A DNA stretch of 64,000 nucleotides from Phycisphaerae bacterium. GTDB lineage: Bacteria > Planctomycetota > Phycisphaerae > Phycisphaerales > SM1A02. Of the stretch, positions 43,704-57,398 are shown piece after piece. Under the pieces are notes generated by a model, which saw only the letters and a program-made list of their open reading frames with translations, did no database searches and was not told the origin of the DNA. The stretch covers positions 1-64,000 of the forward strand of contig VGXO01000008.1 of NCBI GenBank assembly GCA_016873275.1, read 5' to 3'. The position numbers and the translations under genes are program-made. Position 1 is the first letter of the stretch. Every line of letters starts with the position of its first letter.

Positions 43704-44645
43704 TCAACCGTGCTTCGGCTCCAGCTGATCCTTCAAGAACTTCCTCGTCCCCGCGAGGTTCATCTCGAGGAAGGCACGACCGAGGAACGCGCTCCGCATC
43801 GCCTCGGGCACTCGCGCCGCGTCCGCCTGCGGATGAAGCCACGCGCGGTAGCGCTCGACCGCCTCGCGGTCCTCGCAGGCGCGGGCGGTCTCGAGCAGGA
43901 ACGCCGCCTCGTCGGCGACCCGACGGCGTACCGCGGCGAGGAACTCGTGCGGGGCGTCGACGCGCCCGCCGTGGGTGAGCCACAGGCGATCGGATCGTTC
44001 GTCGAGGAGCCGCGCGAGCGAGGCATCCCACGCGGAGGGATCGAAGTCGGTCGCCGGGGTCGGCACCGAGATGAACCGCGAGCCGGGCACGATCATCGCC
44101 GCGACGTCGCCGGTGAAGCACTCGCGACCGCCGGCGTGCTCGAGCATCCATGCGTGATGGTGCCGAGCGTGCCCCGGCGTCTCGATCGCGCGGAGGATGG
44201 CGTCACCGACGCGGACCGCCGCGCCGTCCTCGATCGCGTCGATCCGGTCGGCCGGGCCGGGGATCGGCTCGCCGTAGAAGCGGTCGAATCGGTCGCCGTG
44301 CACGCGACGCGAGCTCGCGACGAGCTTCGCAGGATCGACGAGATGCCGCACGCCCCGCGGATGGACGAGGATCCGCGCGCCGCGCGACGCGAAGCCGCCC
44401 GCCGCGCCCGCGTGGTCGAGGTGGATGTGGGTAAGCAGCACCGCCTCGATCGACGCCGGATCGATCCCGCGCCGAGCGAGCTCCGACTCGAGCCGCGGTC
44501 GGCACGCCTCGGGCCCGCACTCGACGAGCACGCGGCGGACCCCGCCCGCCGCGGACTCGTCCGGCACCTCGACGAGGAACGCGAGGGCGGCGCCAGGGAG
44601 CGAGAGGTAGTCGAGGTCGATGGGCGTGATCGTCGTTCCTCGCAT
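43704..44645 (-). CDS. Metallo-beta-lactamase fold hydrolase
   Basis: A 313-residue hydrolase with the metal-binding signature LLTHIHLDHAGAAGGFASRGARI (HxHxDH) near residue 75, ETPGHARHHHAWML for the third histidine, and FTGDVAAMIVPGSRF for the bridging aspartate, ending with a LWLTHGG histidine. Relatives include glyoxalase II and quorum-quenching lactonases; sequence alone does not decide. The last 60 residues are an added helical segment. A leaderless-type promoter gives the start. Confidence 0.92.
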   Translation of the reverse strand: MRGTTITPIDLDYLSLPGAALAFLVEVPDESAAGGVRRVLVECGPEACRPRLESELARRGIDPASIEAVLLTHIHLDHAGAAGGFASRGARILVHPRGVRHLVDPAKLVASSRRVHGDRFDRFYGEPIPGPADRIDAIEDGAAVRVGDAILRAIETPGHARHHHAWMLEHAGGRECFTGDVAAMIVPGSRFISVPTPATDFDPSAWDASLARLLDERSDRLWLTHGGRVDAPHEFLAAVRRRVADEAAFLLETARACEDREAVERYRAWLHPQADAARVPEAMRSAFLGRAFLEMNLAGTRKFLKDQLEPKHG

Positions 44646-44652
44646 GCGTCGG

Positions 44653-44658
44653 AGCGTA
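44653..44658 (-). promoter_or_regulatory. -10 box of MBL-fold gene (leaderless)
   Basis: TACGCT on the minus strand, 7 nt before the ATG at 44645. Confidence 0.55.
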
Positions 44659-44719
44659 GCGGAGGGGGTCGGAGTGACGCGGGCGCTCCGTTCGGCGCGC
44701 GCCTTCCGAGTCTGCACGT

Positions 44720-44782
44720 CCCCTCCGCCTCGCTGCGCCCGGCACCTCCCCCGCGTCGCTTCGCTCCGCCGGGGAGGAGTTG
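44720..44782. repeat. Double-hairpin repeat, single unit
   Basis: CCCTCCGCCTCGCTGCGCCCGG and CACCTCCCCCGCGTCGCTTCGCTCCGCCGGGGAGGAG, one unit of the 42880 type, between the MBL gene and the stop of the next gene. Confidence 0.85.
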
Positions 44783-44792
44783 CCACGAGGCG

Positions 44793-45776
44793 CTACCGCT
44801 GCATCATCCGCGCCATCGTTGCAAGCGCGGTCGAGTGAGGCGTGTGCAGCATCGCGCCGCCAGCATGCCACGCATCGAGCATGCGTCGAGCGGCGCGGAG
44901 ACCCAGCCTCGCCCGCCATCGACCGCGACGGCTGGTGCGATGCCGCGCCTCGAAGGTGGCGAGGTCGAGGCGGCGGGATAGGACCGCCAGGTTCGCGGCA
45001 GTCGGGCGCGGTCCGAGCACGACCATCGCCTCTCGCGTGGATCGCAGCGGCCGCAACCTGAAGTGCTGCGGGTCGCGGCGATAGGCGAACGTGCCGTAGG
45101 TCTCGAACTCGCTGAAGCCGCTCGGCATGAGGTCGCCGTCGTCGATCGCCGCAAGCACGCGAAGCGGCCAAGGCTCGCTCCCGATCCGAAGCGCGTCGAG
45201 CAGCGCCGCCGCGAGATCGCGACGCATCAGGAGATGCTCGTGGATGAAGGAGCAGGGGACGAGCGGTCCAGCGCCGAGCAGCCGCGCGATCGTCCGGAAG
45301 TAGGGCGGGTGACGGGCCGCCCGCGGCGCAAGCAGCGGTCGCGGCGGCGAGTCGTCCGAGAGGAGCCGCAGCGGGCGAAGCGGCAGCGTGTCGCCATCCC
45401 AGACGAGCCGCCAGTCGGCGCCCGGCGCTGCGGCGGCGGCGAGCTTGAGGAACTGCTGCAGGTACCAGCCAGCACGACGCGGGTCGGCGCCTCGGGCGGC
45501 GAGGTGATCCTCGATCGCCGCGCGATCGGCGCCGATCGCGATCTCCCGTTCGTCGCGGATCGAGACGTCGTGTGCGCTCCGAAGCGCCGACCGCAGCGCC
45601 TCCGCCGCGTCCGGGGCCGCGAGCACGTCGATGCGTGCGACCCCGGTGAACGCCCGGAGCCCCTCGATCGCCGCGAGCGCGACGCCGACCGGACCTGGAC
45701 CGACGCAGACGATCGCGTCGATCGTCGCCGGCTCGACCGGTCGCGCTGCCCCGCCCTCGTCAGGCACCTCAGGCAC
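44793..45776 (-). CDS. DUF6492-like putative glycosyltransferase
   Basis: A protein of 327 residues. IDAIVCVGPGPVGVALAAIEGL and WYLQQFLKLAAA, LVWDGDTLPLRPLRLL (a DxD-type metal motif), HPPYFRTIARLLGAGPLVPCSFIHEHLLMRR and GFSEFETYGTFAYRR match the DUF6492 glycosyltransferase-like family as I remember it. It starts at a GTG overlapping the O-antigen-ligase gene by 8 nt, so it is the last gene of a three-gene surface-glycan operon. Confidence 0.75.
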   Translation of the reverse strand: MPEVPDEGGAARPVEPATIDAIVCVGPGPVGVALAAIEGLRAFTGVARIDVLAAPDAAEALRSALRSAHDVSIRDEREIAIGADRAAIEDHLAARGADPRRAGWYLQQFLKLAAAAAPGADWRLVWDGDTLPLRPLRLLSDDSPPRPLLAPRAARHPPYFRTIARLLGAGPLVPCSFIHEHLLMRRDLAAALLDALRIGSEPWPLRVLAAIDDGDLMPSGFSEFETYGTFAYRRDPQHFRLRPLRSTREAMVVLGPRPTAANLAVLSRRLDLATFEARHRTSRRGRWRARLGLRAARRMLDAWHAGGAMLHTPHSTALATMARMMQR

Positions 45777-47103
45777 GGTCTGGCTCCCGCGCCGCCCGCG
45801 AGAGGGCGATCGCGAGGGCGATGATCGCGCCGGGTGCCTTCGCCTCGACGATGCCGACGAGGCTCGAGAGGAGGACCGCCGCGTAGACCGCGAGCATCGC
45901 CGCGAGCGCCGCGTCGCTCGCCGACCGCCGCCAGAGCCGCGCCGCGAGCGCCCAGATCGCGGTCGTCGCGAGCGCCAGCTGCGGCAGGCCGCCCTCGATC
46001 CAGGCGCGGAGCTGGAGGTTGTGCGGATGGCGGTTCGACGCTGCCCGCGCCGCGAACTCCTCCGATCCGGGATGCGCCTCGCGCTCGTCGTCGAGCCACT
46101 TCGCGAGCCGCGGCGGGAACGAGCCGCGTCCCGAGCCGACGAGCGCGGTCCGGAGGTCGCCGCGGATCAGGTCGATCGACGCCCACCAGAGCCCGACCCG
46201 ATCGCTTCCGAGCGAGAGGACCGCCTCGCGCGAGGAGTCCTCGGGCGACGTGACCGCCGCGGCGGCGCCGAGGGGTCCATCGGGACCGAGGAGGAGCGAG
46301 ACGGCACGGATGGGATCTCGCGCGAAGCGCTCGAGCGAGGTGGGCGCGAGGGAGGACGCCGCGAGGATCGCCCCCGCGAGGAGCGCCGCGCCGACCATCG
46401 CCTGCCTCGCGCGACCTGCCCGCCGCGGTCGGAGCGCCAGCATCGCGGCTCCCGCGAGGAGGTTCCCAAGGACCGACCGAAGCCCGCTCAGGACGATCGC
46501 GATCGTCGCGAGGATCGGAAGGGGCAGGAGGCGCCAGCGGCGGCGGTCCTTCATCGCCACGATCGCCGCGAGCGGCACGACCGCGGCGATCTGGAGGTAC
46601 CACCCCATCGAGCGGAACGCGGTGAGCCCCTCCATCTCGCCGTAGGTCCGGATCGAGCCGCCCGAGGCGAGCGGCAGCATCGCGTGCACGAGCACCGCGG
46701 CGAGCTGCACCGCCGAGCCGGCGGCGAGCGCGCCGAGCAGCGCCCACGGCCGCGCGGCGACCGGGAAGAGGAGGAGCGGCGTCAGGATCGCCCGCTCGGG
46801 ACGAAGCTGCCGCGCGAGGTCCACCTCCGGCGGCGCCCAGAGGAGCGTCAGCAGGCTCCAGAGCCACCACGCGAGGAACGCGAGCCAGATCGGATCACGA
46901 AGCGCCGGGACGAGGCAGCGCCAGATCCGCGGCAGGCGCAGCACCCAGACGGCGAGGAGCCCGCCCCACGCGATCGCCTCGGGCGTGTTCGCGATCGCCT
47001 CGAGGAAGCACCACGCCATCGCCGCGGCGACGTGCAGCGCATGCCCGCGGGGATCATCCCGCTCGGCTCGTTCCAGCAGGCTCCGCGCGTCGTTCGGGAC
47101 CAT
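45769..47103 (-). CDS. O-antigen ligase/Wzy-like membrane protein
   Basis: A polytopic membrane protein of 444 residues. The key segment is the periplasmic loop ASNRHPHNLQLRAWIEGGLPQLALA, where HPHN and the following E-G are the signature of WaaL/Wzy-C ligases that transfer polysaccharide from a lipid carrier. About 10-12 TM helices. The upstream glycosyltransferase gene overlaps it by 50 nt, and the downstream one by 8 nt. WaaL versus Wzy cannot be separated by eye. Confidence 0.88.
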   Translation of the reverse strand: MVPNDARSLLERAERDDPRGHALHVAAAMAWCFLEAIANTPEAIAWGGLLAVWVLRLPRIWRCLVPALRDPIWLAFLAWWLWSLLTLLWAPPEVDLARQLRPERAILTPLLLFPVAARPWALLGALAAGSAVQLAAVLVHAMLPLASGGSIRTYGEMEGLTAFRSMGWYLQIAAVVPLAAIVAMKDRRRWRLLPLPILATIAIVLSGLRSVLGNLLAGAAMLALRPRRAGRARQAMVGAALLAGAILAASSLAPTSLERFARDPIRAVSLLLGPDGPLGAAAAVTSPEDSSREAVLSLGSDRVGLWWASIDLIRGDLRTALVGSGRGSFPPRLAKWLDDEREAHPGSEEFAARAASNRHPHNLQLRAWIEGGLPQLALATTAIWALAARLWRRSASDAALAAMLAVYAAVLLSSLVGIVEAKAPGAIIALAIALSRAAREPDRA

Positions 47104-47983
47104 GCGTGCTCCGGAGCGGCGTCGTCTCGATCAGGACCGGAGGCGCCGTCGCGCGGGGGGCTGGAGAAGCCTTCGGCGCCGGCGCCTCGCGCTGCGCCGC
47201 GTCGCGCTCCCGCACGAGCAGGTGCTTCACGAGCGACCGCGCCGCGAGGGCGATCGACGCCTCGAGCCCGCGCCACCCATCGAGGCACGCCCGGTCGAGC
47301 ATCCACGTGCGGAGGAACGCCCACGGAGGACTCAGGAGGAGCCGCGCGGCGGAGGTGCGGCTCTCCGGCATGAGCGCCGAGGCGTGGGCGTAGCGGATCG
47401 ACCGCTCGAGGGCGTCGCGGAAGCCGGTCCAGCTCTCGTGGCGGAGGACGCCCACGCCCGGCAGGCGGGTGGTCCTCCCGCGGCACTCGAGGAGCTCGTG
47501 CACGAGCCTCGGCTGCACGCGGGCGCGACCGCGGCGGACGAGGCGCACCACCCGATCCCGCCGCTCCGCGCGGATCCATCCGCCCTTGTACCAGTGGCGA
47601 CGCGGCAGCGAGTAGCCGTCGATGGAGGGGTCGTCCTCCCGCACCGCGTCGAGGATCGAGTCGACGAGCTCCTCGGTCGGGATCTCGTCGCTGTCGAGCA
47701 GGAGCACCCACTCGGTCGAGTCGGCGAGGTCGAGCCCATGCTGCTTGAGGGCGGCGAGGCTGCCGCTCTGCGCGAAGCCGTGCCAGTCGCGGCGGACGAC
47801 CTCGCATCCAAGCGCCCGGCAGCGCTCGACCGTGCCGTCCGTCGAGCCGGAGTCGACCACGATCACCCGCCGGGCGACCGCGCGGATCGCCCGGATGCTG
47901 CGCTCGATGGTCCGCATCGAGTCCTTCGCCGTGTAGACGACGGTGAGGTCCGGAGCCGACGTCCATGTCGGGGGCGGGGGCAT
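47054..47983 (-). CDS. Family 2 glycosyltransferase (WaaE/LpsC-like)
   Basis: A 309-residue GT-A enzyme. LTVVYTAKDSMRTIERSIRAIRAVARRVIVVDSGSTDGT at the N-terminus, LLLDSDEIPTEELVDSI (DxD) near 105, and the LPRRHWYKGGWIRAERRDRVVRLVRRG segment are typical of lipopolysaccharide-core glucosyltransferases of the WaaE group. A Pro/Ala-rich 60-residue tail overlaps the next gene by 50 nt. With kdsA this supports an LPS-type envelope. Confidence 0.92.
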   Translation of the reverse strand: MPPPPTWTSAPDLTVVYTAKDSMRTIERSIRAIRAVARRVIVVDSGSTDGTVERCRALGCEVVRRDWHGFAQSGSLAALKQHGLDLADSTEWVLLLDSDEIPTEELVDSILDAVREDDPSIDGYSLPRRHWYKGGWIRAERRDRVVRLVRRGRARVQPRLVHELLECRGRTTRLPGVGVLRHESWTGFRDALERSIRYAHASALMPESRTSAARLLLSPPWAFLRTWMLDRACLDGWRGLEASIALAARSLVKHLLVRERDAAQREAPAPKASPAPRATAPPVLIETTPLRSTHGPERRAEPAGTSRAG

Positions 47984-48068: not shown

Positions 48069-48881
48069 TCAGCGGTACTGCGACCGCGCGAGCGCCACCG
48101 CCTCGTCGTCGAAGCGGTCGTCTCGCCGCATCTGCGCGAAGAGCCCGTGGAGCTCACGCTCCGAGAAGGTCGCCTTGTCGCGGCCGGCGACGTCGAGGTA
48201 GACCCCGCCGCGGTGCATGGCGATCAGGCGGTCGCCGAGGGTCGCCGCCTGCCGCATCGAGTGGGTGACCATGATCGTCGTCGAGCGGCAGCCCTCGACG
48301 AGCCGGCGGGTCAGGGCGATGACGAGCTCGGCGCTGCGGGGATCGAGCGCGGCGGTGTGCTCGTCGAGGAGGAGGACGCTCGGCTCGGTCAGAGTCGCCA
48401 TGAGGAGCGTGATCGACTGCCGCTGCCCGCCGCTCAGGAGACCGATCGGGTCGTCGAGCCGGTGCTCGAGCCCGAGCCCGATCCGCCCGAGGAGCTCCCG
48501 CCAGGCGCCTCGGCGGGCGCCGCGCAGCAGCGGCGCGAGGGTCCGCGGGCGACCGCGCTTCTCGGCGAGGGCGAGGTTCTCGGCGACGGTGAGGTCGGGG
48601 GCGGTGCCCGCGAAGGGATCCTGGAAGACCCGACCGACGAGCCGTGCCCGGCGGTGCTCCGGCCAGCGGGTGACGTCGACGCCGTCGATGGTGATCCTGC
48701 CCCCGTCGAGGTCGAGCGCCCCGGAGATCGCCCCCTGCAGGGTGCTCTTGCCGGAGCCGTTGGTGCCGATCACCACGGTGAACGAGCCCTTGGGAAAGTC
48801 GAGCGAGACCTGCTGCAGGGCGCGCACCTCGTTCTCGGTGCCGGGATTGAAGGTCTTCTCGAGCGACTCAAGCCGCAGCAC
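48069..48881 (-). CDS. ABC importer ATP-binding protein (TrpZ-type)
   Basis: Cytoplasmic ATPase of 270 residues: Walker A GTNGSGKSTLQGAISG near 40, signature LSGGQRQSITLLMATL near 150, Walker B VLLLDEHTAALDPRSAELV and the H-loop VTHSMRQA. DEHTAALDP with the preceding layout is typical of ATPases paired with ABC_sub_bind-type binding proteins. GTG start overlaps the permease gene by 14 nt. Last gene of the operon starting at 53026. Confidence 0.94.
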   Translation of the reverse strand: MLRLESLEKTFNPGTENEVRALQQVSLDFPKGSFTVVIGTNGSGKSTLQGAISGALDLDGGRITIDGVDVTRWPEHRRARLVGRVFQDPFAGTAPDLTVAENLALAEKRGRPRTLAPLLRGARRGAWRELLGRIGLGLEHRLDDPIGLLSGGQRQSITLLMATLTEPSVLLLDEHTAALDPRSAELVIALTRRLVEGCRSTTIMVTHSMRQAATLGDRLIAMHRGGVYLDVAGRDKATFSERELHGLFAQMRRDDRFDDEAVALARSQYR

Positions 48882-49812
48882 GCGCCGCCTCCTTCCTCGC
48901 CCGCGGACGGCGGGCGGCGAGCCAGGTCGGACCGACGATGGCGACGAGCACCACCACCGCCGTCACGAGCTTGAGGTCGTTCGCGTCGAGTCCGAGGCGG
49001 ATCGCGATCGCGACGAGCAGCCGGAAGAGGAGCGCCCCCATCACCGCGCCCGCGACGGCGAGGCCGATCGAACGCACCGGGCCGACCAAGGTCTGCCCGA
49101 GGATCACGCTCGCGAGCCCGAGCACGATGACGCCGATCCCCATCTGGGCGTCGGCGAAGCTCTGCATCTGGGCGAAGAGCGAGCCCGCGCAGGCGATGAG
49201 GGCGTTCGAGGCGGCGAGGCCGATGATGATCATCCGGTCGGTGCTCGTCGCGAGCGCCCGCACCATGCGGGGGTTGTCGCCGGTCGCCCGCATCGCCGAG
49301 CCGAGCTCGGTGTGCAGGAACCAGGTCAGGGCGACGCCGACGAGGACCGCCGCGAACGCCGTCCCGAGGAACATGCCGAGGTCGACGCTCGGCACGGTGC
49401 GGCCGAAGAGCTGCACGCTCTCGCCGAAGATCCGCCCGGAGAGCGACTCGAGCGGCGCGAAGACGGTGCGGCTCGCGTCGATGGGCAGGTTGCTCGCCCC
49501 CATCACCCGCAGGTTCACCGAGTAGAGCGCGGTCATCACCAGGATCCCCGACAGGATCGCGTTGATCTTGAACCGGACGTGGATCGAGCCGGTGATCATC
49601 CCCGCGAGGATGCCGGCGGCGATCGCGGCGGCGGTCGCCGACCACGGGTCCCATCCCTCCTTGAGGAGCCGGGCGGTCACCGCGGCGCCGAGGGGGAAGG
49701 AGCCGTCGGCGGTGATGTCGGGGATGCGGTAGACGCGGAAGGAGAGGAAGACCCCGAGGGTCAGCACCGCGAAGACGAAGCCGATCGCGAGGGTCGCGAG
49801 GAGGAGGCTCAC
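48868..49812 (-). CDS. ABC importer permease (BPD_transp_2 family)
   Basis: A protein of 314 residues with 8-9 TM helices. VLTLGVFLSFRVYRIPDITADGSFPLGAAVTA and MRATGDNPRMVRALATSTDRMIIIGLAASNALIACAGSLFAQMQ are characteristic of the LivH/TrpY-like permease of transporters that use ABC_sub_bind proteins. GTG start overlaps the STAS gene stop (GTGA). One permease gene implies a homodimeric channel. Confidence 0.94.
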   Translation of the reverse strand: MSLLLATLAIGFVFAVLTLGVFLSFRVYRIPDITADGSFPLGAAVTARLLKEGWDPWSATAAAIAAGILAGMITGSIHVRFKINAILSGILVMTALYSVNLRVMGASNLPIDASRTVFAPLESLSGRIFGESVQLFGRTVPSVDLGMFLGTAFAAVLVGVALTWFLHTELGSAMRATGDNPRMVRALATSTDRMIIIGLAASNALIACAGSLFAQMQSFADAQMGIGVIVLGLASVILGQTLVGPVRSIGLAVAGAVMGALLFRLLVAIAIRLGLDANDLKLVTAVVVLVAIVGPTWLAARRPRARKEAARAAA

Positions 49813-50987
49813 GCGGAGGCTCCTTCGTCGAGGCGGAAGACCCAGACCGAGCCGCGGCGCAGGCGGGTCTCGACGACCTCGCCGTCGCGCTCGAGGCGGA
49901 GGGCATGGATCACGATGCGGAGCGGCTGCTCGGCGAGGATCGCCCCGACCACCGAGAGCTCGGTCGCGGTGCGGGGCAGCGGTCGATACGCCGCGACCGC
50001 GACGTGCGCGTGAAGCGAGACGCCGCCCGGGGCGGTCGCCCCGCGTCCCGGCGCGGCTCCCCCCGCGTCGACTCGAGCGACCCCCGCCACGACCGCGGTC
50101 TCCCCCTCCTCGATCGGCTCGCCGCTGTAGCGGAGCGCCCGCCGCACCGCGGCGGCGTCCATTGATCCGATCGGCGAGGACCAGGAGTCCGGCGAGCTCC
50201 GCGCCCACGCGCCGAAGGCGCCCGCGCACTCGCCCGCCGCGACGAAGGCGACCGGTCCGCCCGCCTGCTCGGCGAGCGCCCGCCCAAGGTCGCTCAGCCG
50301 CGCCCCGCGCCCGGCGGGCGCCTCGAAGAATCCCTGCAGGCAGGGCGCGCCCCGCACGAGGATCGCCTGGTGCACCATCGCCTCGACGCCCTCGCGCCCG
50401 CCCGAGGCGAGGCAGTCCGGGCGCGTCGCCTCCGCGGGCATCACCGCGATGGTGCCGCCGACGACGAGCCCCTCGCCGAAGCGACCGGCGGCGGCGGGCT
50501 CGTCCTCGGCGAGGGCGAGTTGGCCGAAGGCGACGAGGTCCGGGGAGACCGCCATGCGGCCGCGGGTGCGCTCCTCGAGCCGAAGCGTCCGGCCGTCGAG
50601 GCGGCGGAGCGATCCATCGAAGGCATCCTCGCCGGTGCCGCCCGCGAGCGCGATGGTGCCCGCGTCCGCCGCGCTCCTCGCCGCGGGCGCGACGGAGAGG
50701 AGCGACTCGAGCCGCGCGATCTTCAGCATCGAGCGGACCGCGTCGCTCGCGTCGACCACCGCGAGCGTGCCGCCGACCGCCCGGAAGCGACCGACCGCCG
50801 CGACGATCACGCCGATCCCGACCGAGGACATGAAGGAGACCTCGGCGAGGTCGAGCTCGATGCGGCTCCGCCCGGAGCGGACCGCCTGCTCGAGCACCGC
50901 GGCGGTGGCATCGCTCCACGCCGCGTCGAGCCGACCGGCGAGCCGGAGGCGGACCGCGTCGGCGGTCGTCGCGAGGTCGATCTTCAT
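49809..50987 (-). CDS. STAS-domain protein with large unknown C-terminal region, in an ABC importer operon
   Basis: A 392-residue cytoplasmic protein with no signal peptide. Residues 1-98 form a STAS domain: VRLRLAGRLDAAWSDATAAVLEQ, IELDLAEVSFMSSVGIGVIV, GGTLAVVDASDAVRSMLKIARLESLL. The serine pair at the usual phosphorylation position of anti-sigma antagonists is present. Residues 100-392 match nothing I recognise; they alternate beta-rich stretches and contain GPVAFVAAGECAGAFGAWARS, PIEEGETAVVAGVARVD and HAHVAVAAYRPLP. ATGA and GTGA overlaps tie it between the binding-protein and permease genes. By analogy with MlaB in the Mla importer it may regulate the transporter; that is inference. Confidence 0.88.
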   Translation of the reverse strand: MKIDLATTADAVRLRLAGRLDAAWSDATAAVLEQAVRSGRSRIELDLAEVSFMSSVGIGVIVAAVGRFRAVGGTLAVVDASDAVRSMLKIARLESLLSVAPAARSAADAGTIALAGGTGEDAFDGSLRRLDGRTLRLEERTRGRMAVSPDLVAFGQLALAEDEPAAAGRFGEGLVVGGTIAVMPAEATRPDCLASGGREGVEAMVHQAILVRGAPCLQGFFEAPAGRGARLSDLGRALAEQAGGPVAFVAAGECAGAFGAWARSSPDSWSSPIGSMDAAAVRRALRYSGEPIEEGETAVVAGVARVDAGGAAPGRGATAPGGVSLHAHVAVAAYRPLPRTATELSVVGAILAEQPLRIVIHALRLERDGEVVETRLRRGSVWVFRLDEGASA

Positions 50988-53026
50988 CGCCCGCCTCCTG
51001 CCGTCGGGGCGGCGGGCGCCTCGCGCTGCGTCACGAGCGCCTCGAGCTCGGGGGTCAACCGGATCCCGAACTCCTCGAGGCGCTCGCGGTCGACGAAGAG
51101 GTCGGTCCGCGTCGGCAGCATGAAGGGGATGCCCTTCGGGTCCTCGCCGCGCAGCACGCGGTCGAGGAGGATCGCCGAGTTCGCGCCGACCTCGCGGTAG
51201 TCGCGGGAGACCGCGAGCGTCGCGCCCTGGCTCACCGCGGCGGGCGTGAATCCGAAGACGGGCAGGCCCGCGCGGTCGGCGGCCTTCGCGACCGCGGGGA
51301 AGCCGCTGCCCGAGACGACGTCGGAGATCTGCGTGACGATCTCGACGCCCTGCGCGATCACGGCGTCGATCGCCTCGGGAAGCTCGGTGGGGCGGTCCGC
51401 GGCGACCGAGACGAGCTCGATCCCCTCCTTCGCGAGCGCCGCCCTCCACTGGTCGCGGTAGATCACGCTGTTCGCCTCGCCGGGCGCGAACGCGGTGCCG
51501 ACGCGGCGCACGTTCGGGGCGACCGCCTTCAGCACGCGGATCATGCCCTCCCAGTCGGCGGCGACGATCGCGCCGGTGACGTTGGGGAGGTGATCCTCGT
51601 TCGACCTGCCCGCGCCCGCCCCGACCGCGTCGCCGATCAGCGAGAAGACGATCGGGCGGTCCTTCACCTTGCGGAGGACCGCCTGCAGCGCGGGCGTCGT
51701 GAACGGCACCACCACGTCATGGCGGTCCTGGGCGAAGGCGGCGGCGATCGTGTTGAGCGCCGCGATGTCGAGCTGCGCGTCCTTGAGGTCGAGCTCGCAG
51801 TTCTCGCCGTCGCGGTAGCCGAGCCGCCGCAGCTCCGTGACGAAGCCCTCCCAGGCGTCCTCGAAGTTGGAGGTGCGGTTGTAGGTGACCGCGGCGATGC
51901 GGGGTCTCGCGGGACGCGGCGCGGCGACGGGGGGCAGGTCCGCGAGCAGGGCGAGCGCGCTCGGCGGGGCGAGCGGCGACTCGATCGAGCGCTCGATCGG
52001 CGGACCGGCGCCGTCGAGCATGATGCTCGCCGAGTCGAGGAGCGCCTTCGGTCGCCGCCACGACCTGGGGAAGGCGTCGAGGTTGATCGAGAGCCACGAG
52101 GGCACGAAGTCCTCGATCTCGACGTCGCTCGGCGGGACGCCCCGCAGCACGAGCTCGGCGATGACCCCGGTCGCGCGACCCATCGCGGGGTAGTCGGCGC
52201 CGAGGTTGATCGCGCCGCCGATCTCCCACATGGCGGGGAAGTTGGTGACGACCGGGACCCCGGCCTGACGGCATCGCGTGATCACCGTCTGCGCCGCCGC
52301 GAGGACGTTCGTGTCGGCGAGGATCCAGAAGGCGTCGATGCCGCGCGAGAGGAGGACGTCCGCCGCGGTGACGACCTCGGTGACGTTCGCGCCGTTCGCC
52401 TCGAGGAGCTCGAAGCCGAGGCTCGCCGCCACCTCGCGCCCGATGCGGACGCTCGCCTCGGCGTTCGGCTCCGCGGGGTTCCACACGCAGCCGACCCGGC
52501 GGAGGGAGGGCGCACAGGCGCGGAGCGCCTCGAACAGCGGTCCGATCGGCTGCATCGTGCCGAACCCCGCGACGTTCCGCGGGCGCGGCGACTCGGGCGA
52601 CCATGCGCCGAGCGGGATCCCCGCCGCCGGCGGCGAGGCGACGAGCCCGAAGACGTGGGGGGTCCCGCGTTGATTCGCCCGGATCATCGCCTGCGTCGCC
52701 GGCGTCGAGAGCGTGATGACGAGGTCGAGGTCCTCGCCCGCGAGCTGCGTCGCCATCTGCCCGAGCGTGCCGACGTCGCCCTCGGCGTTGAGCAGGATGA
52801 TCTCGTCCCCGTCCTCCGCGGAGACGCCGCGGGCGGCGAGGTGCTCGAGGAGCCCGCGGCGGGCATCCTCGAAGGACTGGATCGAGTTGATCTGGAGGAC
52901 CGCGATCCGCTCGATCGGCGAGCGCAGGTCGTTCCGCTGTCCCGAGCGGTCGGAGAGGACGAGCGCCGCCGACGCGGCGGCGATCAGGATCAGCCCGAGC
53001 AGCAGTCGGCGGAGCCCCGCGAGCAT
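50984..53026 (-). CDS. Tandem-duplicated ABC_sub_bind substrate-binding protein
   Basis: A 680-residue exported protein. The N-terminal MLAGLRRLLLGLILIAAASA is an uncleaved-looking anchor or signal. Two complete periplasmic-binding domains follow: about 40-325 (IAVLQINSIQSFEDARRGLLEHL, LVITLSTPATQAMI, RRVGCVWNPAEPNAEASV, NLGADYPAMGRATGVIAELVLRG) and about 370-660 (IAAVTYNRTSNFEDAWEGFVTELRRLGY, VVVPFTTPALQAVL, RRVGTAFAPGEANSVIY, LAVSRDYREVGANSAILLDRVLRG). A normal family member has one. Related TrpX proteins bind aromatic amino acids; the ligand here is unknown. It heads the four-gene operon. Confidence 0.93.
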   Translation of the reverse strand: MLAGLRRLLLGLILIAAASAALVLSDRSGQRNDLRSPIERIAVLQINSIQSFEDARRGLLEHLAARGVSAEDGDEIILLNAEGDVGTLGQMATQLAGEDLDLVITLSTPATQAMIRANQRGTPHVFGLVASPPAAGIPLGAWSPESPRPRNVAGFGTMQPIGPLFEALRACAPSLRRVGCVWNPAEPNAEASVRIGREVAASLGFELLEANGANVTEVVTAADVLLSRGIDAFWILADTNVLAAAQTVITRCRQAGVPVVTNFPAMWEIGGAINLGADYPAMGRATGVIAELVLRGVPPSDVEIEDFVPSWLSINLDAFPRSWRRPKALLDSASIMLDGAGPPIERSIESPLAPPSALALLADLPPVAAPRPARPRIAAVTYNRTSNFEDAWEGFVTELRRLGYRDGENCELDLKDAQLDIAALNTIAAAFAQDRHDVVVPFTTPALQAVLRKVKDRPIVFSLIGDAVGAGAGRSNEDHLPNVTGAIVAADWEGMIRVLKAVAPNVRRVGTAFAPGEANSVIYRDQWRAALAKEGIELVSVAADRPTELPEAIDAVIAQGVEIVTQISDVVSGSGFPAVAKAADRAGLPVFGFTPAAVSQGATLAVSRDYREVGANSAILLDRVLRGEDPKGIPFMLPTRTDLFVDRERLEEFGIRLTPELEALVTQREAPAAPTAGGGR

Positions 53027-53033
53027 CGGCGGG

Positions 53034-53039
53034 AAGGTA
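53034..53039 (-). promoter_or_regulatory. -10 box of the ABC importer operon (leaderless)
   Basis: TACCTT on the minus strand, 7 nt before the ATG at 53026. Confidence 0.55.
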
Positions 53040-53074: not shown

Positions 53075-54145
53075 TCAGTCGCCGCCGAGGATCTTGCGGA
53101 CCATCGTCGCCCGCGCCTCGCGGAGCTGGTCGTCGTTGAGGTCGAGCCCCGCGACGGTCCGCAGGTGCGCCGGCTGCACCATGAGGAAGAGGCGGTTGAT
53201 CGTCTCCATCGGGACCGCGTCGAGGCGGCGGAGGCAGAGGCCCATCCGCAGGCGGCTGAGGAGCTTCATCGACTCCTCGAGTCCGAGCATCCGCGCCGAG
53301 CGCAGGACCCCGAGCGAGCGGAAGACCCGGTCGTCGAGGAGCGTCGCGTTCCGCTCGGCGAGCAGCCGCCGCGACTCCCGCTCGTAGGCGACGACCTCGG
53401 GGACCACCCGCTCGGCGAACTCGGCGAGCAGGTCGTCCTCGGAGATCCCGAGGGTCACCTGGTTCGAGACCTGATAGAAGTCGCCCGCGCTCTCCGAGCC
53501 CTCGCCGTAGAAGCCGCGCACCGCGAGGTGGAGGTCCTTGGCGGCGCGGCGGACCCGCTCGATCTCGTTGGTGATGCGAAGCCCGGGGAGGTGGAGCATC
53601 ACCGAGAGGCGGATGCCGCAGCCGACGTTCGTCGGGCAGGCGGTGAGGTAGCCCCAGCGGGGGTGCGCCGCGATGTCGAGCGACTCCTCGAGCTGCTCGT
53701 CGAGCCGCCGGACCCGCTGGTACGCCTCGACGAGGCGGAAGCCCGGCAGGAGGACCTGCATCCGGAGGTGGTCCTCCTCGTTCACCATGACGCTGAGGCT
53801 CTCGTCCGCGGAGACCGCGACCGAGCGCGGCGCCTCGTTCTGGGCGAACTGCCGGCTGATCAGGTGGCGCTCGACGAGGAGGTCCCGCTCGTGGGCGCTC
53901 GCGTCGTTCATGCCGACCCAGATGAGCCCGCTCGCGAGGTCGTCGGGCCATGCGGCACGCCGCACCGCCTCGATCACCTCCCGCGCCTGGGGCGCGGTCG
54001 CGCGGCGGGGGAAGGGAAAGCCGCTCAGGTTGCGGGCGAGGCGCACGCGGCTCGAGATGACCACGTCTCCGTCGGGCGAGCCGGCGTCGAGCCACGGACC
54101 GCCCGATCGCAGGTCGCCGGCATCGCCGGTGCGGGAGCCGTTCAT
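53075..54145 (-). CDS. mcsB: Protein-arginine kinase McsB
   Basis: A phosphagen-kinase-fold enzyme of 356 residues that phosphorylates arginines on proteins, marking them for ClpCP. VISSRVRLARNLSGFPF, VNEEDHLRMQVLLPGF and the catalytic-cysteine segment CPTNVGCGIRLSVMLHLPGL are all intact, as are RGFYGEGSESAGDFYQVSNQ and the C-terminal helical region. Its activator gene mcsA lies 7 bp upstream, and clpC is 5 kb away on the other strand. Confidence 0.96.
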   Translation of the reverse strand: MNGSRTGDAGDLRSGGPWLDAGSPDGDVVISSRVRLARNLSGFPFPRRATAPQAREVIEAVRRAAWPDDLASGLIWVGMNDASAHERDLLVERHLISRQFAQNEAPRSVAVSADESLSVMVNEEDHLRMQVLLPGFRLVEAYQRVRRLDEQLEESLDIAAHPRWGYLTACPTNVGCGIRLSVMLHLPGLRITNEIERVRRAAKDLHLAVRGFYGEGSESAGDFYQVSNQVTLGISEDDLLAEFAERVVPEVVAYERESRRLLAERNATLLDDRVFRSLGVLRSARMLGLEESMKLLSRLRMGLCLRRLDAVPMETINRLFLMVQPAHLRTVAGLDLNDDQLREARATMVRKILGGD

Positions 54146-54152
54146 GCCTGCC

Positions 54153-54662
54153 TCACTCCTTCAGCGGCTCGCCGTTGCCGGCGGTCGCGCCCTCGCCGCC
54201 GAGACCGTGCAGGCGGTCGCGGAGCCGCGCGGCGCGCTCGTACTGCTCGGCGGCGACCGCCTCGTCGAGCTCGCGGACGAGCCGCATGCGGAGCTCGCGG
54301 AGGTCGATCGGGGCGGCGCGGCGGCGGGGGAGCCGACCGGCGTGGTGCGTGCGGCCGGCGTGCGCCCGCTCGATCAGCGGCTCGAGCACCGCGCCGAAGA
54401 CCTCGTAGCACTGCTCGCACCCCACCTGACCATGCTGGCGGAACTGGGCGAGGGTCATCGTGCAGCCGGGACAGGTCGGCGCCGGCGGACCCTTGCGGGC
54501 GGCGGGGGCGATGTTCGTGAGGAGGACGTTGAGCGGCTGCGGCTCGGGCACGTAGCCCGCCATCGCGGCGTGCGCCTGGCAGAGGTGGACCTCGGTCTTG
54601 GCGCCGTTCTTGATCACCACCTCGTGGACGACCGCCGGCTTGTCGCAGTGATCGCAGTTCAT
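54153..54662 (-). CDS. mcsA: McsA-like activator of protein-arginine kinase
   Basis: A 169-residue protein with two zinc-binding pairs in each half: CDHCDKPAVVHEVV...HLCQAHA at the N-terminus and CPGCTMTLAQF...GCEQCYEVFG near 63-95, then a UVR-type helical hairpin EQYERAARLRDRLHGL near the C-terminus. This is the McsA layout. The ATG overlaps the kdsA stop by ATGA; a TACAGT 10 nt upstream could also give a separate transcript. Confidence 0.93.
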   Translation of the reverse strand: MNCDHCDKPAVVHEVVIKNGAKTEVHLCQAHAAMAGYVPEPQPLNVLLTNIAPAARKGPPAPTCPGCTMTLAQFRQHGQVGCEQCYEVFGAVLEPLIERAHAGRTHHAGRLPRRRAAPIDLRELRMRLVRELDEAVAAEQYERAARLRDRLHGLGGEGATAGNGEPLKE

Positions 54663-55582
54663 CGTCGGGACGACTGTAGCGCCGGCGAGGCGGCAGGGTC
54701 CAGCGCCGCGGACCTCGCCGCGCCGCCCGCGAGCCACGGCGCCATCGTCCGCCGAAGCGCCGCGAGGGACTCGAGGAGCGGGGGCACCTCGTCGAGGGCG
54801 AGCATCGAGCTCGCGTCGCTCGGGGCGGTGCGGGGCGTCGGGTGGCACTCGAGGAAGACCGACGCGACGCCCGAGACGACCGCGGCGCGGGCGAGCATCG
54901 CCGCCCGCTCCGGTCGCCCCGCGGAGGCGGTGCCCTCGGCGCCGGGGAGCTGGGTCGAGTGGGTCGCGTCGAAGCAGGTCGGCACGCCCTCCGCCGCGGC
55001 GAGCTCGATCAGGTCGCCGAGCCCCGCGAAGTCGTTCACGAGCCGGTGGTAGCCGAAGAAGGTCCCGCGCTCCGTGACGATGACGCGGCTTCCGCCTGCC
55101 TCGCGCACCTTGCGGATCGCCTGCAGCATCTCCCGCGGCGCCATGAACTGACCCTTCTTCACGTTCACCGCGCGACCGGTGCGGCCGGCGGCGGCGAGGA
55201 GGTCGGTCTGGCGGCAGAGGAACGCGGGGATCTGGAGGAGGTCCACCACCTGCGCCGCGGGCGTTGCCTGCGCCGGCTCATGGATGTCGGTGGTGACCGG
55301 CACGCCGAGGCGGCGGCGGACCTCGCCGAGGCGGCGCAGCCCCGCCTCGAGACCGGGACCCCGAGGCGAGGAGACCGACGAGCGGTTCGCCTTGTCGAAG
55401 GAGCCCTTGAAGACGAACCCGAGGTCGAGCCGGCGGCAGTGATCGCGGAGCAGCTCGGCGATCGCGAGGTTGAGCGCATCCTCCTCGAGCAGGCACGGTC
55501 CCGCGATGATCGTCAGCGGGGGATCCGCGGCGAAGAGGCGGTCGAGATCGCGAGAGGGTTCTCGTGCGGAGGTCGTGGACAC
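54659..55582 (-). CDS. kdsA: 3-deoxy-8-phosphooctulonate synthase
   Basis: Condenses arabinose 5-phosphate and phosphoenolpyruvate to KDO 8-phosphate for LPS inner core. In 307 residues: LTIIAGPCLLEEDAL, VFKGSFDKANRSSVSSPRG, VPVTTDIHEPAQATPA, LLQIPAFLCRQTDLL and NVKKGQFMAPREM, all characteristic. The C-terminal 40 residues are an Ala/Ser-rich extension. The start is a GTG at 55582 with a leader of about 23 nt from a TACACT box. Confidence 0.96.
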   Translation of the reverse strand: MSTTSAREPSRDLDRLFAADPPLTIIAGPCLLEEDALNLAIAELLRDHCRRLDLGFVFKGSFDKANRSSVSSPRGPGLEAGLRRLGEVRRRLGVPVTTDIHEPAQATPAAQVVDLLQIPAFLCRQTDLLAAAGRTGRAVNVKKGQFMAPREMLQAIRKVREAGGSRVIVTERGTFFGYHRLVNDFAGLGDLIELAAAEGVPTCFDATHSTQLPGAEGTASAGRPERAAMLARAAVVSGVASVFLECHPTPRTAPSDASSMLALDEVPPLLESLAALRRTMAPWLAGGAARSAALDPAASPALQSSRR

Positions 55583-57215: not shown

Positions 57216-57280
57216 GAATCGCGCCGAGCCCCCGGGCGAGGTCCGACTGGAGGCTGGCGTCGGGACTCCGAACGTGAAAC

Positions 57281-57398
57281 GCCGGCATCCTCCTCCCTTG
57301 TGTCGCCGCCGGCATCCTCCTCCCTTGTGTCGCCGCCGGCATCCTCCTCCCTTATGTCGCCGCCGGCATCCTCCTCCCTTGTGTCGCCGCCGGCATCC
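57281..57398. repeat. 27-bp tandem repeat, four copies plus a partial fifth, abutting the pabA promoter
   Basis: GCCGGCATCCTCCTCCCTTG(T)... units start at 57281, 57308, 57335, 57362 and 57389 (truncated after GCCGGCATCC). One unit carries TTATGTC where the others have TTGTGTC. The array ends 3 bp before the CACAAT box of the next gene. Confidence 0.93.

Follow-up and report, generated by a model that had tools for sequence, protein, structure and literature searches.

The four overlapping genes between 53026 and 48069 on the minus strand of the window – the whole stretch of Phycisphaerae bacterium DNA analysed here, 64,000 nucleotides in length – encode an ABC importer whose class probably has a regulatory subunit that has not been described before. 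The proposed subunit is a STAS domain fused to a C-terminal domain with the predicted fold of acetolactate decarboxylases (ALDC). Comparison of gene neighbourhoods showed that this STAS-ALDC-like protein belongs to the importer and has been retained with it through gene rearrangement. A regulatory role is probable because this association survives changes in gene order.

Operon layout and genomic surroundings

The genes and domains discussed below, with the evidence for each, are:

50984–53026, minus strand: membrane-anchored solute-binding protein, 680 aa (two PF04392 stretches, E 8e-84)
49809–50987, minus strand: STAS-ALDC-like fusion protein, 392 aa, whole gene (PF01740; AlphaFold pLDDT 88.5, pTM 0.83)
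50685–50987, minus strand: STAS domain of the fusion protein, aa 1–101 (PF01740 E 8.6e-13, match at aa 3–101)
49812–50672, minus strand: C-terminal ALDC-like domain of the fusion protein, aa 106–392 (AlphaFold pLDDT 90.8, pTM 0.90; PDB fold matches; conservation)
48868–49812, minus strand: ABC permease, 314 aa, BPD_transp_2 (PF02653 E 5e-27)
48069–48881, minus strand: ABC ATPase, 270 aa (PF00005 E 5e-26)
53075–54145, minus strand: mcsB-like gene (PF00217), directly upstream of the binding-protein gene with a 48 bp gap

All four overlapping genes of the initial annotation are present, in the order binding protein, STAS fusion, permease and ATPase. The overlap is 4 bp (ATGA, 50984–50987) between the binding-protein and STAS genes, 4 bp (GTGA, 49809–49812) between the STAS and permease genes, and 14 bp (48868–48881) between the permease and ATPase genes. 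A PF04392 binding protein, a PF02653 permease and one ABC ATPase in a single operon place the system in the ABC_sub_bind, or TrpXYZ, class of importers. Two details of the initial annotation did not hold. It had read a fixed stoichiometry into the overlaps, which suggest translational coupling, not a fixed ratio. It had also assigned the genes to one promoter, but a promoter scan found no sigma-70-like site for the operon, and read-through from kdsA-mcsA-mcsB is possible since the binding-protein gene starts so close behind the stop of the same-strand mcsB-like gene.

The mcsB-like gene is probably outside the importer system, and no mcsB-, mcsA- or kdsA-like genes were found beside the operon in relatives. 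In the window these three lie in a row just upstream of the importer (53075–55582), as an arginine-kinase pair and a KDO-synthesis gene. Downstream, on the same strand at 43704–47983, are genes for a family 2 glycosyltransferase and for O-antigen-ligase-like, DUF6492-like and metallo-beta-lactamase-fold proteins, which look like a surface polysaccharide group. At 57280–57398 a 27-bp unit is repeated in tandem (4.4 copies, with 97% matches). There was no Rfam match to a riboswitch or T-box across 44–58 kb.

Conservation of the STAS gene with the importer

Full-length relatives of the STAS protein were found in 21 of 151 genomes of the window's family, its own genome included. In all 21 the importer adjoins the STAS gene, and the gene order is unchanged as far as the contigs reach. 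These loci mostly have 4-bp overlaps, and their flanking genes differ. The four-gene unit is therefore not a chance arrangement, as the same genes occur in the same order in 20 other family genomes with different flanks. A permease of this type is encoded in 22 of the 151 genomes, and 21 of these 22 have the STAS gene; in the remaining one the permease gene is truncated by the end of the contig.

A scan of GTDB contigs with the single STAS-fusion protein as the query found nothing; with an alignment as the query it found 21 loci, which brought in four more genomes with the operon. Wider searches used a profile of the C-terminal half against 392 genomes of the phylum, and a whole-protein profile against two smaller sets, 118 genomes from the order that includes G512 and 29 from the class that includes G426. 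Five families were added (f31, f53, f62, f98 and f126), all with the STAS gene linked to the importer. Every full-length STAS relative with readable surroundings – about 37 genomes in at least six Planctomycetota families, mostly metagenome assemblies from this one phylum – adjoins the importer. No relatives of the STAS fusion were found in viral contigs or in plasmids.

Three gene orders are found among the STAS-bearing importers. The order in the window, binding protein-STAS-permease-ATPase, also occurs in f31, f62 and f98, while most of f126 has STAS-permease-ATPase-binding protein. The third order is that of locus L123 in f53 (G426 contig C445, 867–6694), where the STAS gene is followed by a fusion of the permease and two binding domains in one chain of 957 aa, and then by the ATPase. 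Partner-switching genes adjoin importer genes in this cluster: after the ATPase there is a STAS gene on its own, then an RsbW-like HATPase (PF13581 E 4e-24) and, truncated where the contig ends, a Cache-domain protein. In a tree of the permease and ATPase the STAS-bearing core forms one branch (94/94), which does not include the long-branched L123. The phylum also contains importers of this type that lack a STAS gene (L124–L127), and the gene is absent from all six importers of this type examined outside the phylum.

That the STAS gene has persisted in three different arrangements would be hard to account for if it had no functional link to the importer. A STAS component of a TrpXYZ-type importer, the central proposal of the initial annotation, was borne out by this neighbourhood check: synteny is kept in all relatives, across families and gene orders. 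It is very improbable that the STAS fusion is a mere passenger of the operon with no functional relation to the importer. The patchy distribution within the family would fit such a passenger, as would one of two same-genus genomes, which lacks the whole unit. However, absence in the family is always of the whole unit and never of the STAS gene alone, and the linkage spans at least six families and three gene orders. The rearranged clusters above all largely refute this explanation. The ATPase signature described below also argues against it.

The STAS domain

The STAS half matches the folds of RsbV, SpoIIAA and MlaB; it is closest to RsbV/SpoIIAA, with MlaB next. The protein scores 62.5 bits against TIGR00377 (cut-off 53.45), which marks it as a STAS protein with a phosphorylatable Ser, and 14.4 bits against the MlaB sequence family NF033618 (cut-off 90), which places it outside that family. 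In an alignment with SpoIIAA, Ser55 takes the place of the Ser that is phosphorylated there, and it is present in 35 of 35 homologues. The same position corresponds to Thr52 of MlaB, which lies at the interface with the ATPase, and the phosphomimetic change T52E weakens that complex (PMC7367683). As for an MlaB-type subunit, the STAS gene is encoded with an ABC ATPase in all members. A phosphorylation switch at the STAS protein is possible, given the invariant Ser55 and the RsbV/RsbW-like neighbours in L123.

The likeness to RsbV and SpoIIAA, in fold, in sequence and in the conserved phosphorylatable Ser, also lends itself to a different explanation, in which the importer is a sensor and the STAS protein its messenger. 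Ligand flux would alter the phosphorylation of Ser55 by an RsbW-type kinase acting in trans and thereby change gene expression, and the STAS protein would not control transport. The run of the L123 cluster into a STAS gene, an RsbW-like HATPase and a Cache protein is in keeping with this. So is the presence in the window's own genome of two RsbW-like kinases (contigs C30, 6763–7444, and C33, 15059–15840), which are candidate in-trans kinases for Ser55. However, both kinases adjoin stand-alone STAS genes of their own, and L123 is the only cluster with kinase genes nearby – no RsbW-like kinase gene was found near the operon in the window or in the other relatives' loci searched. Unlike RsbV and SpoIIAA, this STAS domain is part of a fusion, and the genes beside it are those of a transporter; an anti-sigma kinase gene accompanies it only in L123. 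An output through partner switching, which would leave the ATPase signature and the ALDC-like half unexplained, is quite unlikely.

The C-terminal ALDC-like domain

The STAS domain had been described as fused to about 290 residues, and this was confirmed, with PF01740 matching at aa 3–101 and no Pfam match beyond. The C-terminal half also had no meaningful match in NCBIfam or in PDB sequence searches, and the ALDC family PF03306 matched none of 22 members at E up to 10. An AlphaFold model of this half, made with 22 relatives, has a pLDDT of 90.8 and a pTM of 0.90, and the 13 best PDB fold matches of the predicted domain are all acetolactate decarboxylases. The best of these has an E of 7.6e-4 and a probability of 1.00; the TM-scores of 0.36–0.59 are moderate, and identity is about 10–12%. 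A profile-profile comparison with a divergent ALDC set gave weak support: it scored 28.4, whereas 60 column shuffles reached no more than 21.1 and an unrelated control 22.6. With canonical ALDC alone the score was not above chance. The model thus points to an ALDC-like fold in a domain that no sequence library recognises.

His326, His328 and His361 are fully invariant in 35 homologues, and position 172 is always acidic (Glu/Asp). With Asp191, Arg335 and Arg378 these make up most of the invariant or nearly invariant polar positions of the C-terminal half. The zinc ligands of ALDC are His194, His196 and His207, with Glu65 close by. A weak sequence-profile match puts the 'GE' and HxH motifs in the same register as in ALDC, and a metal site is likely because an HxH followed by a His on the following strand is the ALDC pattern. 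Glu172, His326, His328 and His361 are the probable metal site, as predicted from conservation and the model. The likeness to ALDC (BudA/AldC) covers the predicted fold, the Glu of the 'GE' motif, the His-x-His strand and the third His on the next strand. The differences are the fusion to STAS, the missing PF03306 match and the position of the third His, which is offset in sequence – about 32 residues from the HxH in the window domain and about 11 in ALDC. The assignment of His361 rests on topology, as read from the model's secondary structure, and not on a superposition. A linear alignment places Arg339 at the third ALDC His, but the idea that this His was lost was dropped, as the invariant His361, on the strand after the HxH strand, is the better candidate.

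The initial annotation had set a match of this region to a known unrelated enzyme against its own proposal. An enzyme-like fold and metal-site residues were indeed found, but the link to the importer is unbroken, and the likeness adds a candidate function. A metal site this strictly conserved could belong to an enzyme just as well as to a sensor. The C-terminal half might be an active ALDC-type, metal-dependent decarboxylase or isomerase that acts on the imported compound or its product, with the STAS half only anchoring it to the importer and uptake coupled to the first catabolic step. The ALDC fold, the three His and the acidic residue kept in 35 sequences and the tight operon in all relatives agree with such an enzyme, and so does Arg263, which is in register with the Arg145 motif of ALDC and is present in 27 of the 35. 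In the other 8, however, it is replaced, mostly by Ile, and besides the probable metal residues the C-terminal half has almost no invariant polar residue. Docking of an enzyme is unlikely, and regulation of the ATPase accounts more readily than docking alone for the changes specific to the STAS-linked ATPases.

Several Planctomycetota genomes also encode a divergent ALDC-like family (L141–L160), whose N-termini look like signal or lipoprotein sequences and whose GE, HxH and GH motifs are intact. PF03306 matches these proteins only weakly; they are probably secreted or located in the envelope.

Changes in the ATPase

The ATPase of the window has Ser43 in its Walker A motif (GTNGSGKS) and a C-terminal tail with Tyr269. 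Ser43 and the extended tail with Tyr269 are found in all or nearly all STAS-linked ATPases, and those with readable ends are 270 aa in length, apart from one of 273. Only six STAS-less ATPases, drawn from three phyla, were compared residue by residue; they are shorter proteins with Ala43 and a C-terminus of the DDxLLLG kind, and the STAS-linked tail is six residues longer than theirs. These alignments showed that the presence of STAS co-occurs with specific ATPase changes, though shared ancestry of the STAS-bearing clade may explain part of the differences. In MlaFB, the C-terminal tail of the ATPase contacts the STAS subunit (PMC7367683). The ATPase differences, which include the region that touches the STAS subunit in MlaF, are taken as the best sequence evidence that STAS acts on the ATPase.

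The doubled binding protein

The PF04392 profile upheld the description of two complete ABC_sub_bind domains in one chain, an alpha domain at aa 37–325 and a beta domain at aa 373–662. They are the only PF04392 matches of the whole genome. The N-terminus has a hydrophobic anchor without a lipobox Cys, a pattern that recurs in relatives, and the solved relatives of the binding domains are 3LKV, 6HNI and 3LFT. A tree of single domains has two old clades, with domain 1 of the window in alpha and domain 2 in beta. Some loci have only the beta type (L049, L109) or only the alpha type (L111, L112), and the domains of f126 are closer to alpha. In L123 both types occur, in reversed order.

Two specificity positions are known from CD0873, VC_1101 and SP1069, and the known ligands of ABC_sub_bind binding proteins are aromatic amino acids (PMC6816091). 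At these positions a bulky residue is paired with Tyr/Trp in the family's alpha domains, and Ala/Ser/Thr mostly with Phe/Tyr in its beta domains. The position of Gln284 in SP1069 is Tyr in both window domains, and the Gln of the tryptophan binder is found in no family domain. The score against the tryptophan-transporter equivalog NF041285 was 249.9 bits, below the cut-off of 390. 'TrpXYZ' is a family name here, not a substrate; the pocket residues of the window are no exact match to the Trp, Tyr or Phe types.

Two ligands or a local-concentration effect had both been suggested for the doubled binding protein. Two ligands for one permease are favoured because the domains are paralogues of ancient origin whose pockets differ, and because some lineages have only one or the other; from their sequences, the two domains likely serve two different ligands. 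The local-concentration reading fits less well.

A proposed model of a regulated importer

From sequence, predicted structure and analogy with Mla, we lean towards an importer under STAS regulation: the STAS half would bind to the ATPase, and the ALDC-like half would signal an internal metabolite by way of its probable metal site. An ABC_sub_bind (TrpXYZ-like), binding-protein-dependent importer would thus have a dedicated cytoplasmic regulatory subunit. The STAS half would dock near the lengthened tail of the ATPase, as MlaB does on MlaF, and would be needed for the assembly or activity of the ATPase, with Ser55 at the interface. The C-terminal half would bind a metal through Glu172/His326/His328/His361 and may sense a metabolite in the cytoplasm that is related to what the importer takes up, the obvious candidate being an acetolactate-like keto or hydroxy acid; import would thereby be tuned to internal supply. 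Outside, the two tethered ligand domains, with different pockets, would feed one permease with two different, probably amino-acid-like ligands. The placement of the STAS domain nearer to RsbV/SpoIIAA than to MlaB in sequence counts against this model, and the ALDC similarity rests on the modelled fold, at TM-scores of 0.36–0.59, and on residues.

Each part of the system has a known relative. The binding-protein (PF04392), permease and ATPase families are those of the TrpXYZ/ABC_sub_bind importers (TrpX SP1069, the CD0873 system and VC_1101). The six non-planctomycete ABC_sub_bind systems examined have three genes, one binding domain and no STAS protein; relative to TrpXYZ, the window system adds the two tethered binding domains, the STAS-ALDC-like protein, and a longer-tailed ATPase with a Walker A Ser. 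With MlaFEDB it shares a STAS protein encoded with an ABC transporter, a Ser/Thr at the same STAS position, and an extra C-terminal tail on the ATPase (PMC7367683). However, Mla belongs to the MCE-type lipid transporters and has no binding protein of the ABC_sub_bind class, and MlaB is a bare STAS domain, whereas the STAS domain of the window is fused to a domain of 287 aa. The novelty would lie in MlaB-like STAS control in a different class of ABC importer, together with a new sensor-like domain. A full-text literature search for STAS with planctomycete ABC transporters, or with partner switching and binding proteins, found no paper on the combination.

The authors of the MlaFB study noted that there was no other STAS-ABC pair in the PDB and that such regulation may be wider in ABC transporters (PMC7367683). 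On genomic grounds, the operon described here is a strong candidate for a second such pair, this time in another class of transporter. The changes in the ATPase tail and Walker A motif offer a direct and cheap test of the STAS-ATPase link, and a previously unrecognised domain family gains a fold, a probable metal site and a genomic context. Tentatively, the system may be the second class of STAS-regulated ABC transporter and the first among binding-protein-dependent importers – one whose ATPase would be gated by a STAS subunit carrying a metal-dependent metabolite sensor of ALDC fold, so that the importer would read both the ligands outside and the metabolite pool inside.
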